This document shows positions 3,301-44,128 of a DNA stretch of 45,343 bases, piece after piece. The notes beneath the pieces were generated by a model, which made no database searches, was not told the origin of the DNA, and was given only the letters and a program-made list of their open reading frames with translations. The stretch's first letter is position 1; each line of letters starts with the position of its first letter. A program made the position numbers and the translations under genes. The DNA comes from Deltaproteobacteria bacterium (GTDB taxonomy: Bacteria; Desulfobacterota; Syntrophia; Syntrophales; JACQWR01): positions 1-45,343 of the forward strand of contig JAPLJV010000015.1 in assembly GCA_026388415.1 (NCBI GenBank), read 5' to 3'.

Positions 3301-4436
3301 GTAAGTGCCCGCTTGTAGAGAGGTTCTGCCTCTGCAGAATAGCCAGTAGAGTGGAAGAGTACGGCTAAATTATTCAGGGAACTGGCGGTATCGGGATGCT
3401 CCGACCCCAAGGTCTTCTCTCTGATCGCCAGAGAGCGCCTGTATAGGGGCTCCACCTTGTCGTAGGCTCCCATTTTTTGGTAGAGCTTTGCCATGTTGTC
3501 CAAGGCAGTCGCGGTGTTGGGATGCTCCGGCCCCAGGATTTTCTCACTGATCGCCAGTGCCCGTTTATAGAGAGGTTCGGCTTCAGCGTAGCGGCCTTGG
3601 GAGTTATAAAGCACCGCCAGATTATCGATACCTGTGGCTACGATGGAATGCTCAGCGCCAAATACTTTTTCGCATATCGCGAGCGCTTGTTGAGCAATAG
3701 GCAAGGCTTCGGCGTACTTGCCTTGCTGGTACAAGTCGAGTACTTGTTGGTTCAGCCTGATCACCTTCAGCCACTGCTGGCCTTGATCGGCAAACCAGGC
3801 CCGGACCTGGTTCGATGCCTCTACTTGCCAACCGCGTCGGATGAAAAGGTCGAAATCGCCAAGAGGGCCGGCGGTGAGATCATCTTCGCTTTCCAGCAGC
3901 GGAATGGTTTTGTCATACCACTGCCGGGCGGTCGCCAAGTCGCCCTGTAAAAAATAGGTGTGGCCGAGATTGATATTTGTAGCCATGATATCAGGAGCAA
4001 GCGCATGACTCCGTTCGCAAGCTGTCCGCGCTTGGCCCCATTCGCCAGCGGAAATACTGTGCCAACAGAGTGAATTGCGGGCCCTTATATTGTCAGGCGC
4101 CAACTCAACAGCTTTTCGGTCATCGGCCAGCCCAAGCGCAGGTTGCCCCAGCTCACTTTGCGCACCCGACCGTCCGAGGAGTGCTTCCACATCATCTGGC
4201 TGAATGGCAAGCAATTGGGTCCAGATATTGATGGCCTGGGTCCAGTCCTTGGCTACTTCGGCTGCCCTGCCGGCCTTGCTCAATTCTTCAACACTGAGGT
4301 TGGTTTTGTTAGCTTGTTTGGCGAGCGATGGCTGGGGCGTATCCTCCGCCAGCAGCAGCGGGGTGGCAACGGCGATCAGTAACAGGCAGAGGAGCTCGGA
4401 GGCGATACGGTGGGTTTTCATATGGGGTTCACTCAT
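342..4436 (-). CDS. exported TPR-CHAT domain protein (caspase-like protease fold)
   Basis: This 1364-residue protein probably acts outside the cytoplasm: residues 6-30 form a signal-peptide-like stretch (MKTHRIASELLCLLLIAVAT). An N-terminal TPR segment (about 45-180) is followed by 13 tandem 42-residue kinesin-light-chain type TPR units (about 245-790) with core EKVLGPEHPDTA. After a helical linker comes a C-terminal CHAT domain with the caspase-like dyad His1184 (LATHGFF) and Cys1269 (LSACETG) and the usual terminal NPYYWGAFVFLG. CHAT proteins are clan CD cysteine peptidases or signalling scaffolds; the substrate is unknown. The ATG at 4436 has AGGATA just upstream; Met6 at 4421 is the alternative start. 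It follows three same-strand genes (membrane TPR, alarmone hydrolase, secreted TPR), which suggests a shared pathway. The domain call is firm, the role is not. Confidence 0.9.
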   Translation of the reverse strand: MSEPHMKTHRIASELLCLLLIAVATPLLLAEDTPQPSLAKQANKTNLSVEELSKAGRAAEVAKDWTQAINIWTQLLAIQPDDVEALLGRSGAQSELGQPALGLADDRKAVELAPDNIRARNSLCWHSISAGEWGQARTACERSHALAPDIMATNINLGHTYFLQGDLATARQWYDKTIPLLESEDDLTAGPLGDFDLFIRRGWQVEASNQVRAWFADQGQQWLKVIRLNQQVLDLYQQGKYAEALPIAQQALAICEKVFGAEHSIVATGIDNLAVLYNSQGRYAEAEPLYKRALAISEKILGPEHPNTATALDNMAKLYQKMGAYDKVEPLYRRSLAIREKTLGSEHPDTASSLNNLAVLFHSTGYSAEAEPLYKRALTIYEKVLGPEHPHTAYALNNLAAIYREIGAYDRAEPLYKRALTIREKVLGPEHPDTSDSLNNLAGLYYSMEAYDKAEPLFRRSLAISEKTLGPEHPDTAVSLNNLAGLYDTMGAYDKAEPLYRRSLSVREKILGPEHPETAYTMNSLALIYSHMGAYDKAEPLYRRSLVIREKVLGPEHPDTVLTLNNIAGLYGTMGSYDKAEPLYRRSLSVREKVLGPEHPDTAYTLNDLALMYHKMGAYDKAELLYRRSLSIREKVLGPEHRNTATTLTNLAALYVTMGTYDKAEPLLKRALAIWEKTLGPEHPNTVYALINLSSLYYKMGDYDRTEPLLRRSLVVREKVLGPEHPDTANSLNNLAVFYKTMGSYDKAEPLYSRSLAIAEKTLGHEHPHTATALRNLALLYAAQGRSGESLTLMERVQESDRKQIEQVLGFASESLQTQFLATREYDFFAYLSLIWQRFPDDPKAIRNALDVWLARKGILLEAQKRIKEVLSVGDNPQAQEIFANLILIRQELAMLVLGGQGKEGPEAYQKRIVELTAQKETLEGQLSRLSQAFAQHRKTRIATTSAVASALPQGAILIEMARIKGVDFKKGEWGSSRYLAFVLSSGKNPDVSLVDLGDADNIDQQTAAFKKSLGNSKTLSDVLAKQSNDLYRLIFAPLHLGVGESRQIFLSPDGSLNLIPFEVLRDDKGRYLIETHTFHYVSAGRDIAGYGMIKEKGRKALLIGDPDFNLAAKQTDGEKEKPVTRSRQMQGLTFSRLPGTKEEVEAIAAIMGRSDSDTYTGETARESVLLRKESPRILHLATHGFFLSDQDWSSLMDEKSRGINIIGKDKLPSKKPVSIENPFLRAGLALAGANRSLAQEGTMDGVLTGEKILGLNLRGTDMVVLSACETGVGDVKNGEGVYGLRRAFTQAGAKSLVMSLWEVPDRETKELMVSFYENLQSGKVNRAEALRHAALKQREVVKARYGYDNPYYWGAFVFLGEAE
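2090..3730 (-). repeat. 13 tandem 126-bp coding repeats (TPR array)
   Basis: Within the CHAT gene the codons for the Glu-His of each TPR unit recur every 126 bp, from about 2134 to 3646, giving 13 units. Neighbouring units are highly similar at DNA level, notably the motif ggatgctccggcccca. The array therefore probably expands and contracts by recombination. It is coding sequence and not a CRISPR or noncoding satellite. Confidence 0.85.
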
Positions 4437-4531
4437 TATCCTGGCAAAGCCTTACATCGGAATAAGAACCCATTAATTTTAACAATAATTTCTTTTTTCG
4501 TGGCGCAGTATAATAAAAACTATCTTGTATG

Positions 4532-5098
4532 TCAATGGAACACCTCTCTTTTGGCTTGGCTCTTCTTTGCATTTTCGGAGAATAATATTTGCCCAAGGTA
4601 ATTGGCAGCCCACTGGTGTGCTTCTTTGTCAACGGGAACCGTGTCTATAATCTTCTGCAGGCATTTCCGGGCCGAGTCATGGTACCCATATGCTTCGTGA
4701 TAGATCTGCGCCTTTAGAAATAAGGCCTCCGGATGATCAGGGGCTTTTTTGAGAAGCTCGTTTATAATCTGCAGGGCTTCCTCAAAGCGTCCCTTCATCT
4801 TGCTGAATCTGATCTTGTCCAATTCGCATTTCGCCGGTTCAGCGACGCTCAAAGGTTTGTGACGCCCCCCATAGAACACCCTCCCAAATGCATTACTGAA
4901 CTTGTTGAGTGCAAACATAGCGATAATAGCCATTACAACAGGAGCGATGATCAGCAAAGGGATGGGGACAGCGATAGTACCGGATTGTAGAAAAACAACT
5001 ATAGCGATGACCAGAAAAGCACCGAAACAAACCCCATAAATCATCAGGAAGCGAATTATCTCTGTTCTATAGTCATCTATTATTCTTTTGAAACCCAT
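4532..5098 (-). CDS. membrane-anchored TPR protein
   Basis: This 188-residue protein has two predicted membrane helices near the N-terminus (about 17-37 and 43-64). A cytoplasmic or periplasmic tail follows, carrying about two TPR-like helix pairs (about 95-175, e.g. RFEEALQIINELLKKAPDHP). TPRs bind partner proteins and no catalytic motif is seen. It lies 95 bp upstream of the TPR-CHAT gene on the same strand and 158 bp after the alarmone-hydrolase gene, so it may be part of the same transcription unit and anchor a complex at the membrane; that link is inference from position. Confidence 0.65.
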   Translation of the reverse strand: MGFKRIIDDYRTEIIRFLMIYGVCFGAFLVIAIVVFLQSGTIAVPIPLLIIAPVVMAIIAMFALNKFSNAFGRVFYGGRHKPLSVAEPAKCELDKIRFSKMKGRFEEALQIINELLKKAPDHPEALFLKAQIYHEAYGYHDSARKCLQKIIDTVPVDKEAHQWAANYLGQILFSENAKKSQAKREVFH

Positions 5099-12216: not shown

Positions 12217-12260
12217 CTGATCTTTTCGCTTTACTCCCGACGGGGGGACATTTCCCTATC

Positions 12261-12309
12261 CAGGAGTTATCAGCCTGAGCGGCGGTTATCGGGTGAACTC
12301 CATCACCTC
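12261..12309 (-). promoter_or_regulatory. fluoride riboswitch (crcB motif) aptamer
   Basis: On the minus strand the leader shows the crcB-motif layout. GGTGA (12307-12303) pairs with TCACC (12296-12292) and carries the conserved GATG. GGAGTT (12301-12296) pairs with AACTCC (12268-12263). A small GCC/GGC hairpin (12283-12273) is followed by the conserved CTGAT. Laid against the Thermotoga fluoride aptamer as I remember it, all helices and the GATG and GCTGAT blocks correspond. Downstream, GGAGT (12237-12233) can pair either with the aptamer strand ACTCC (12267-12263) or with the terminator 5' arm ACTCC (12216-12212). Fluoride holding the aptamer strand would leave the linker free to disrupt the terminator, giving an ON switch. 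The downstream enolase gene fits the known fluoride regulon. Confidence 0.87.
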
Positions 12310-12325
12310 TCAAATATGTTTGTCC

Positions 12326-34892: not shown

Positions 34893-34980
34893 CCCCATGC
34901 TCGGCGCGGGCACAACGAAACATGAAAATCCCCCCTTAACCCCCCTTTGGTAAAGGGGGGATGGGGGATTTTCATATAAA
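34893..34980. repeat. 88-bp repeat with C/G-run palindrome, copy 1
   Basis: This copy and 42881-42970 are nearly identical. Both run from CATGnTCGGCGCGGGCACAA to GATTTTCATATAAA and contain the palindrome CCCCCCTTTGGTAAAGGGGGG inside a larger GAAAATC…GATTTTC stem. Each copy ends 20-26 bp before a plus-strand start codon, here rpe, so it would form a stable hairpin in the 5' leader or just upstream of it. Confidence 0.85.
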
Positions 34981-42880: not shown

Positions 42881-42970
42881 ACCCATGTTCGGCGCGGGCA
42901 CAAAGAAACATGAAAATCACCCCTTAACCCCCCTTTGGTAAGGGGGGGGATGGGGGGATTTTCATATAAA
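42881..42970. repeat. C/G-run palindromic repeat, copy 2
   Basis: This is the second copy of the repeat at 34893-34980, with a few substitutions and one extra G in each G run. It ends 26 bp before the ATG of the selenoprotein gene. The palindrome would form a strong hairpin in or next to the leader of that operon. Confidence 0.85.
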
Positions 42971-42996
42971 CACACAAAAATCAGAGGAATCAAAGA

Positions 42997-43785
42997 ATGA
43001 ATAAACTTGATTGCGGTGGGAAATTGATAACTGGATTTGTTATTTTTCTCTTCCTCAGCACTGCAACCTTACCTGCTTACGCTGAAAATGGGAACGAATG
43101 TGCTGATATTACCAAAGAAAAGGTCGCCGGCACCTTGAAAAAAATGAATATCCCAGTAGTTGAAATATTGGCCATCAAGAACAGTCCCTTGGACGGTATT
43201 TGCGAGATAGAGGTCAACAGCAAAGGATCGGCGGGTATCTTTTATACCGATCTAACGCTCAATTACGTGATATTCGGAAGCCTGCATGACACCAGGAATA
43301 TGGTGAACCTCACTGCAAGCAGTGTTCAGAAACTGCAGGACAAGAAAAGAGTTGATCTGGCCAGGATAACCTTGAATGAGGGACTGGCCATCGGGGTAAA
43401 GGGAGCGGCGAAAAAAGTCATAATTTTTACGGACCCTGACTGACCATACTGCGGCCAACTTCATCAGGTGATGAAGCAGATTGCAGACAAACGGCAAGAT
43501 ATCATATTTTATATTAAGTTATTCCCTTTGAGTATGCATAAGGATGCCTACTGGAAGTCCAAAAGCATCATTTGCAACAATTCCATGAATTTGCTTGAAA
43601 ACTGCTTCGCAGGGAAAAAGATTGACAAGACGGAGTGTGATAACACCGAAGTTGATGAGACGATAAAATTAGCCGATTCCTTAGGCATCACGGGAACCCC
43701 GGGCATTGTTCTGCCTGATGGCCGGATGCGTATGGGCGCCCTGCCGGAAAGTGAACTGATTGATTTGATTGACGGAAAGAAATAG
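42997..43785 (+). CDS. selenocysteine-containing DsbC/DsbG-like thiol-disulfide protein
   Basis: This 262-residue exported protein is probably a periplasmic disulfide isomerase or reductase. A signal peptide (about 10-29, ending PAYAEN) precedes a DsbC-like N-terminal domain (30-130) and a thioredoxin-fold domain. The redox motif normally reads D-C-P-Y-C; here codon 149 is UGA (43441-43443) in FTDPD-U-PYCGQLH, giving U149-P-Y-C152. The reading frame continues for 113 codons with further family features, including the cis-proline loop GITGTPGIVLPDG. A 7-bp hairpin with an AGGU loop lies 15-33 nt after the UGA. This pattern fits selenocysteine and not a random stop. The ATG has AGAGGAA upstream. 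A second UGA-containing gene follows 34 bp later. Confidence 0.88.
43459..43476 (+). promoter_or_regulatory. bacterial SECIS hairpin of the DsbC-like gene
   Basis: CTTCATC (43459-43465) pairs perfectly with GATGAAG (43470-43476) around the loop AGGT. The loop begins 22 nt after the UGA, and has GG followed by U, as in the fdhF element bound by SelB. It lies inside the coding sequence, as bacterial SECIS elements must. Confidence 0.8.
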
Positions 43786-43819
43786 TATGCCCTTCAATTG
43801 CGTTTAGAGGAACTTAACC

Positions 43820-44128
43820 ATGAAATTCCCAAAATATCGCTTCATCACCCTCGTTACCCTCTTGCTGCTGACCTGTTTTTTTATGCAGGCTATTTACGCT
43901 GCGGAGAGAATTGTACAACTGAATATTCCCGGTTGCGGCTCCTGAGGCCTGAGCCAGAGGATAGGTTCTATCCTCAAGACAACAGCGGGAGTCATCAAGC
44001 ATGAAATACCGCGGGAAAATACTATCAACATCACTTTTGACGATGAAAGCATATCCGCAGACGAGATTCTTGCCACGCTGAAAAAAAATGGCTTGACTGT
44101 CAACGGTGCGCCGGTATTGATTAAGTAG
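43820..44128 (+). CDS. selenocysteine-containing exported HMA/MerP-like small protein
   Basis: This 102-residue protein has a signal peptide (about 8-28, ending QAIYAAE) and one ferredoxin-like heavy-metal-associated type domain. The strand-loop-helix start reads IVQLNIPGCGSUGLSQ and the rest is KTTAGVIKHEIPRENTINIT, then DEILATLKKNGLTV, in the usual beta-alpha-beta-beta-alpha-beta order. Codon 42 is UGA (43943-43945), so the metal/redox motif is C39-G-S-U42, replacing CxxC. A perfect 7-bp hairpin with a GGUUC loop begins 11 nt after the UGA. The ATG at 43820 follows AGAGG. Without readthrough only 41 residues, mostly signal peptide, would be made. It probably binds or passes on a metal ion such as mercury or copper, or acts as a thiol/selenol redox protein; both are inference. 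Confidence 0.87.
43957..43975 (+). promoter_or_regulatory. bacterial SECIS hairpin of the HMA-like gene
   Basis: GAGGATA (43957-43963) pairs perfectly with TATCCTC (43969-43975) around the loop GGTTC. The loop starts 18 nt after the UGA with GG in the first two positions, within the range for bacterial elements. Confidence 0.8.

Follow-up and report, generated by a model that had tools for sequence, protein, structure and literature searches.

Selenocysteine (Sec)-containing relatives of the Dsb proteins are already in print. DsbG-like selenoproteins (COG1651), which have a UxxC motif, were reported in PMC1794560 and PMC1088965 and are listed in PMC2398784; they also appear, as family NF041057, in a 2026 review that lists 119 selenoprotein families or subfamilies (PMC13188914). 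Selenoproteins described as thiol:disulfide interchange proteins (PF13098, likewise UxxC) are found in PMC1794560 and PMC13188914. In the case of MerP, the GOS table of PMC2398784 gives two mercuric transport selenoprotein sequences, and a putative mercuric transport protein with a C/SxxU motif is listed in PMC13188914. As both DsbG-like and MerP selenoproteins have been published, neither of the genes described below represents a new family. However, neither a DsbC-like Sec subfamily nor a pairing of DsbC-like and MerP-like genes is described in the titles and abstract openings of the selenoprotein literature searched, including PMC9402790.

The window, meaning the whole 45,343 nt stretch of DNA analysed, contains two adjacent genes of this general type, with the following features:

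42983-42987, + strand: AGAGG, probable ribosome-binding site of the DsbC-like gene, assigned by eye
42997-43785, + strand: DsbC-like putative selenoprotein gene; ORF from ATG to TAG, giving 262 residues if the TGA encodes Sec
43441-43443, + strand: in-frame TGA, codon 149, at the first position of a CxxC-type motif (UPYC)
43459-43476, + strand: bacterial SECIS-type hairpin, 7 bp (CTTCATC/GATGAAG), loop AGGT
43806-43810, + strand: AGAGG, probable ribosome-binding site of the MerP-like gene, assigned by eye
43820-44128, + strand: second putative selenoprotein gene; the product is MerP/HMA-like, 102 residues long, and has the motif GCGSU and, by eye, a signal sequence
43943-43945, + strand: in-frame TGA, codon 42 (CxxU), the only interruption of the MerP-like ORF
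43957-43975, + strand: SECIS-type hairpin, 7 bp (GAGGATA/TATCCTC) around GGTTC, which folds as 8 bp with the loop GTT

A sequence-only reading of this DNA had proposed that UGA replaces the first cysteine of the CxxC motif in a DsbC/DsbG-like protein, with coding potential continuing to the proline loop and the stop codon, and that a perfect 7 bp hairpin with an AGGU loop lies at SECIS distance. When the sequence was re-read, both the coordinates 42997-43785 and the position of the residue, 149, were found to be right; the ORF has a single interruption, the TGA at 43441-43443, flanked by the local peptide TDPD-U-PYC, and is open from there to 43785. The N terminus appears by eye to be a signal sequence, followed by a DsbC_N dimerisation domain at residues 43-107 (PF10411, 35.3 bits against a cut-off of 25) and a thioredoxin-fold domain at residues 138-257 (PF13098, 55.7 bits against a cut-off of 27). 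The TP loop of the latter, T234 and P235, is invariant in an alignment of the protein with 20 homologues (A1).

The description 'DsbC/DsbG-like' holds at the level of the superfamily, but the protein scores below the NCBIfam cut-off for both the DsbC equivalog NF008129 (65.4 bits against 215) and the DsbG equivalog NF008657 (34.6 bits against 124). It resembles the published DsbG-like selenoproteins in combining a DsbC/DsbG-type thioredoxin fold with a putative Sec at the first motif position; however, NF041057 is absent from the 18 NCBIfam families matched at E values up to 0.1. The window protein has a DsbC_N domain, whilst the printed tables of DsbG-like selenoproteins give no domain layout and may include such proteins. 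It also shares the UxxC motif and PF13098 with the thiol:disulfide interchange selenoproteins, PF13098 being a broad domain label. The family profile aligns over nearly its full length to the solved DsbC structures 4npb, 4ilf and 1eej, the last of these being Escherichia coli DsbC, with which the window protein shares a full-length sequence and fold match, dimerisation and thioredoxin-fold domains, a CxxC-type motif and the TP loop. The motif of E. coli DsbC is CGYC; the window protein differs in having a predicted Sec for the first catalytic cysteine, followed by PYC rather than GYC. An AlphaFold2 model (pLDDT 87.9) retrieved DsbC and DsbG as the top matches in a PDB search, with whole-chain TM-scores of about 0.45-0.55 and an rmsd near 8, whereas the catalytic domain alone superposes on 3gv1 with an rmsd of 2.7; the whole-chain values would fit two domains set at a different angle.

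Homologues align on both sides of the TGA codon, at 42-56% identity in A1 (34% and 31% in the two most distant rows), and all 20 have cysteine at column 149. Matches to the protein were found in 113 of 197 related genomes, among which the window copy is the only well-aligned match with an in-frame TGA; a TGA is also present in a short partial match in G196 (E 1.7e-4), and a TAA in one match in G134. A wider scan of named genomes, in which 80 of 165 relatives were kept, found either cysteine or TGA at the aligned codon of all 80 loci: 14 have TGA, the other primary matches having cysteine. With the addition of a tandem TGA copy at L146, there are 15 such copies in 15 genomes besides the window, mostly Nitrospirota MAGs, together with one Deltaproteobacteria MAG and one further bacterium. 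Hence the search for cysteine in homologues that the sequence-only reading had proposed turned up, in A1 and in the 80 kept loci, no aligned residue other than cysteine or the putative Sec.

The printed limits of the bSECIS model are a loop of 3-9 nt with a G in its first two positions, a stem of 4-16 bp, a loop lying 16-37 nt after the TGA and a minimum free energy at or below -7.5 (PMC13188914). The hairpin in the DsbC-like gene falls within all of these: the loop is AGGT, the stem is 7 bp, the loop begins 22 nt past the TGA and the isolated structure folds at -8.0 kcal/mol, which was equalled by none of 200 shuffled sequences. For the 47 nt following the TGA, the folding energy is -15.2 kcal/mol (z -2.7), a value matched by five of 200 shuffles. 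When all 1,561 TGA triplets on both strands of the window were considered, 17 were followed at the same distance by a hairpin that has seven or more Watson-Crick pairs and a loop with G among its first two bases; as such a structure is therefore a 1% event by chance, the hairpin alone is suggestive rather than proof. The strong evidence for a Sec codon is that from the relatives, 15 other copies of which have a TGA at the same residue and the same predicted hairpin at the same offset.

A perfect 7 bp stem with a four-base nGGn loop is present at one fixed offset, 22 nt, in all 16 TGA copies, whilst seven pairs form at the same place in only four of 82 cysteine copies, a sample that includes distant relatives and a fusion protein (L080) discussed below (Fisher p 5e-15, uncorrected for kinship). 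In these counts, identical 75 nt stretches were entered once, and both stretches below 60 nt and matches with a gap at the residue were excluded. The stem falls within the codons for LHQEMK; even among those cysteine copies that encode LH..M(K/E), the hairpin occurs in just four of 19 (p 2e-6 relative to the TGA copies). Synonymous codon choice follows the same division, with leucine encoded by CTT in 15/16 TGA copies and 19/61 cysteine copies, lysine by AAG in 15/15 and 27/69, and histidine by CAT in 16/16 and 47/76. One compensatory change, U-A to C-G, is found in L099, where it coincides with glutamate instead of lysine in the protein. Covariation alone is thin evidence, since the other six of the seven stem pairs never vary among the TGA copies, and 25 of 500 shuffles reach the level observed. 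A kinship-aware test yielded seven independent pairs, in which the hairpin went with the TGA in a mean of 5.4 and against it in none (median p 0.06).

A six-frame scan of the window for TGA codons with a long open stretch on either side and a strong hairpin after them returned two sites, 43441 and 43943; the thresholds, 35 codons ahead of the TGA and 55 beyond it, were chosen once both genes were known, and admit both. The second site lies in the gene directly downstream, which had been absent from the earlier reading. Its MerP-like family accounts for 116 matches in 106 of the 197 related genomes, and 108 of these matches, by hand count and including some fragments, have one in-frame TGA. At each of the 30 loci read, the TGA occupies the aligned position. 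Of the eight matches with no TGA, six were fetched, and two (L166 and L167) have the motif SGCADC, with cysteine at the putative Sec position. In a sample of 395 genomes from the phylum, MerP-like matches occur in 18, of which 11 are the window's own genome or members of its order, and 19 of the 20 matching rows have one TGA. A second MerP-like copy is present in the window's own genome (contig C51, L081:5057-5323, + strand), with the motif GCRNU, a TGA and the same hairpin.

The downstream hairpin is likewise conserved. In an alignment of 31 of the 116 matches (A3), every copy scanned has a hairpin score, counted as pairs minus half for each G-U, of at least 6.5; when the structure is fixed at seven pairs, pairing holds in 96.8% of cells, and the outermost pair does not form in 7/31 copies. 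Three pairs vary on both sides (12 cells), a cell count that no shuffle reaches. The product is small and MerP-like, with a CxxU motif, as are the MerP selenoproteins, but it scores only 29.4 bits against the MerP equivalog TIGR02052, for which the cut-off is 92.55, and has no Pfam HMA match over the cut-off. PF00403 does exceed its cut-off in a cysteine homologue, L169, and a single-sequence model of the window protein, of low confidence (pLDDT 61), has the order beta-alpha-beta-beta-alpha-beta.

The genome contains what is needed to decode such codons. A tRNA-Sec is present at G000:C43:100683-100776, scoring 72.8 bits, over the cut-off, and was identified by ARAGORN as tRNA-SeC with the anticodon tca; selA (597 bits), selB (383 bits) and selD (390 bits) all exceed curated cut-offs, and selD itself has one in-frame TGA, within GAGUACKIGP. 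Thus all four of the genes that the sequence-only reading had named for checking, selA, selB, selC and selD, are in place. Machinery was also considered as a discriminator between genomes with TGA and cysteine copies, and rejected: of the 34 genomes searched, 15 were TGA genomes and 19 were not, and SelA exceeds its cut-off in 14 of the former and 17 of the latter, so its presence is silent on which gene uses Sec. G204, the only TGA genome lacking SelA, may be an incomplete assembly of 1.4 Mb.

The best explanation of the locus as a whole, to which we assign a probability of about 0.95 on these comparative grounds, is that the TGA at 43441 is the Sec codon of an exported DsbC-like enzyme, and that a second Sec gene lies downstream. 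SelB loaded with Sec-tRNA-Sec would recognise the hairpin at 43459-43476, such that Sec is inserted and translation does not terminate. The product would be an exported, homodimeric thiol:disulfide isomerase or reductase in which the nucleophile of the UPYC motif is Sec, rather than cysteine. It would probably be kept reduced by a membrane protein of the DsbD/CcdA type; two DsbD_TM genes are found in the genome, one of them on the same contig as the window (C15:63323-63961). The downstream protein, with its CxxU motif and own hairpin, would probably be exported to bind a soft metal ion or to exchange thiol or selenol groups. Hence both are most likely periplasmic thiol/selenol proteins, one a disulfide isomerase or reductase and the other a small metal-binding or redox protein. 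An annotation in which TGA is read as a stop truncates both genes, such that the periplasmic isomerase and the MerP-like protein are lost.

The other DsbD_TM gene lies near a weak VKOR-type match (L187 and L188, contig C28:708-2812); a VKOR-type gene is found in this genome only below the cut-off. These two possibly form a separate disulfide-forming pair.

DsbC and ScsC act on periplasmic metal-binding proteins, and it is conceivable that the two genes form a single module, in which the isomerase would keep the CxxU motif of its neighbour reduced. This would add to the main explanation rather than replace it. The two genes are separated by 34 bases and may share a transcript, the downstream gene having its own probable ribosome-binding site, and both products appear by eye to be exported and are predicted to contain Sec. 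However, they are adjacent only in the genome of the window: in the flanks fetched, the pair occurs at none of 29 other MerP-like loci and none of the 80 DsbC-like loci. Elsewhere, the MerP-like Sec gene adjoins Maf, YggS-like, nucleotidyl transferase and methyltransferase genes, and the Sec-DsbC gene lies beside unrelated ones, recurrently ScpB, LysM/NlpC, a sensor kinase and regulator pair and a RelA/SpoT homologue. We therefore regard such a module as unlikely. No redox or metal partner recurs among the clustered neighbours of the TGA DsbC-like copies, hence no function was read from their context. Similarly, a role for the MerP-like gene in mercury resistance is not claimed, as no mer gene was found among the scanned neighbours in the window or at the MerP-like loci of relatives, and no transport genes recur there; these Pfam scans covered chosen representatives of the neighbours. 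The setting of Maf, YggS-like and nucleotidyl transferase genes is conserved at L172, L173, L174, L176 and L181-L184.

Partial termination occurs generally at Sec codons, and the residues preceding the TGA of the DsbC-like gene span the DsbC_N domain. Under low selenium, the gene might yield a truncated product of 148 residues, a dimerisation-domain protein with a separate function. We consider regulated termination of this kind very improbable, as nothing conserved was seen that would be particular to the short form, and the cysteine relatives lack any such option.

Still less probable is that the TGA represents a nonsense mutation, or a sequencing error, in a cysteine gene, and that the hairpin has arisen by chance. 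The nearest kin all have cysteine, and the assembly is a draft in 66 contigs; yet the same codon is TGA and the same hairpin follows it in 15 other copies, synonymous codons are held for the stem, the frame is intact to the stop at 43785 and the gene directly downstream likewise has a TGA followed by a conserved hairpin. The contention of the sequence-only reading that a random nonsense mutation would be unlikely is thereby borne out by recurrence, and in practice the comparative pattern refutes this alternative. A genome-wide change of code, with TGA encoding tryptophan or another residue, would also leave TGA open in two window genes, but is the least credible possibility, given the dedicated tRNA-SeC (anticodon tca) alongside SelA, SelB and SelD, the finding of only two hairpin-trailed interruptions in the window scan and the cysteine, not tryptophan, aligned in relatives.

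Although the DsbC-like gene appears to encode a selenoprotein in the window, its closest relatives do not. In a quick, unrooted tree of 93 rows (16 with Sec), each covering more than about 190 residues of the query, 11 changes between Sec and cysteine are needed, at least seven of them forced by starred branches, with 31 of the 90 inner branches open. This shows that the putative Sec residue has been swapped with cysteine repeatedly among the DsbC-like relatives. The window copy falls in a starred clade of 17 rows, in which it is the only TGA copy, the others being cysteine-containing relatives from the same order. In the region of the hairpin, the window protein has LHQVMKQI and another member of the clade (L022) has LHKVMKQI; as its residues resemble those of its own clade, this stretch does not look recently imported.

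The four cysteine copies that keep all seven pairs are L157, L123, L100 and L035. In L157 and L123 both stem and loop are as in the TGA copies, whilst L100 has one G-U pair in the stem and L035 has the loop AAGA, with no G in the first two bases. L157 falls, at 90, inside a starred group in which its companions are three TGA copies. These hairpin-bearing copies suggest replacement of Sec by cysteine with retention of a relict SECIS; however, the direction of exchange is unprovable from a tree that is unrooted and quick, and as a change of TGA to TGC involves one base, assembly errors in single MAGs may contribute. Replacement of Sec by cysteine in bacteria is rare according to the 2026 review, documented there mainly for FdhA and SelD (PMC13188914).

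One tentative account, which we rate at slightly short of even odds, is that Sec is old in this DsbC-like subfamily and has been replaced by cysteine many times, in both Syntrophales and Nitrospirota, leaving relict SECIS elements, with the window retaining a surviving Sec copy. The relicts would then comprise two that are intact (L157 and L123) and two that are decaying (L100 and L035). Were this true, a family of thiol oxidoreductases that has switched so often, with relics still visible, would provide a new test case. The cysteine genes that still have a hairpin make both the direction and the pace of exchange testable. The DsbC-like set also supplies matched, predicted Sec and cysteine enzymes that share one fold in the cell envelope, which allows any advantage of Sec in disulfide isomerisation to be measured directly.

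Several variants of the DsbC-like protein were found in the course of the search. One Nitrospirota genome has tandem copies, one with TGA and one with cysteine (L146:3207-3839 and 4001-4768). At two further loci (L033:1501-2196 and L102:4001-4693) the motif is CPFS, with serine in place of the second cysteine. The fusion protein in the window's own genome (contig C66, L080:3220-5202, - strand) is 660 residues long, and joins a DsbC-like thioredoxin domain of the cysteine form to a caspase-type peptidase C14 and an FKBP-type prolyl isomerase.

Two other features of the window were noted. A dispersed repeat, about 66 bp long and containing a 26 nt inverted repeat, is present at 34917-34980 and again at 42905-42976, just upstream of the DsbC-like gene; it recurs at more than 20 sites of the genome (many of the 50 match rows represent both strands of a single site). 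At 12254-12316, on the - strand, there is a fluoride riboswitch aptamer, which at 47.6 bits is over the gathering score.
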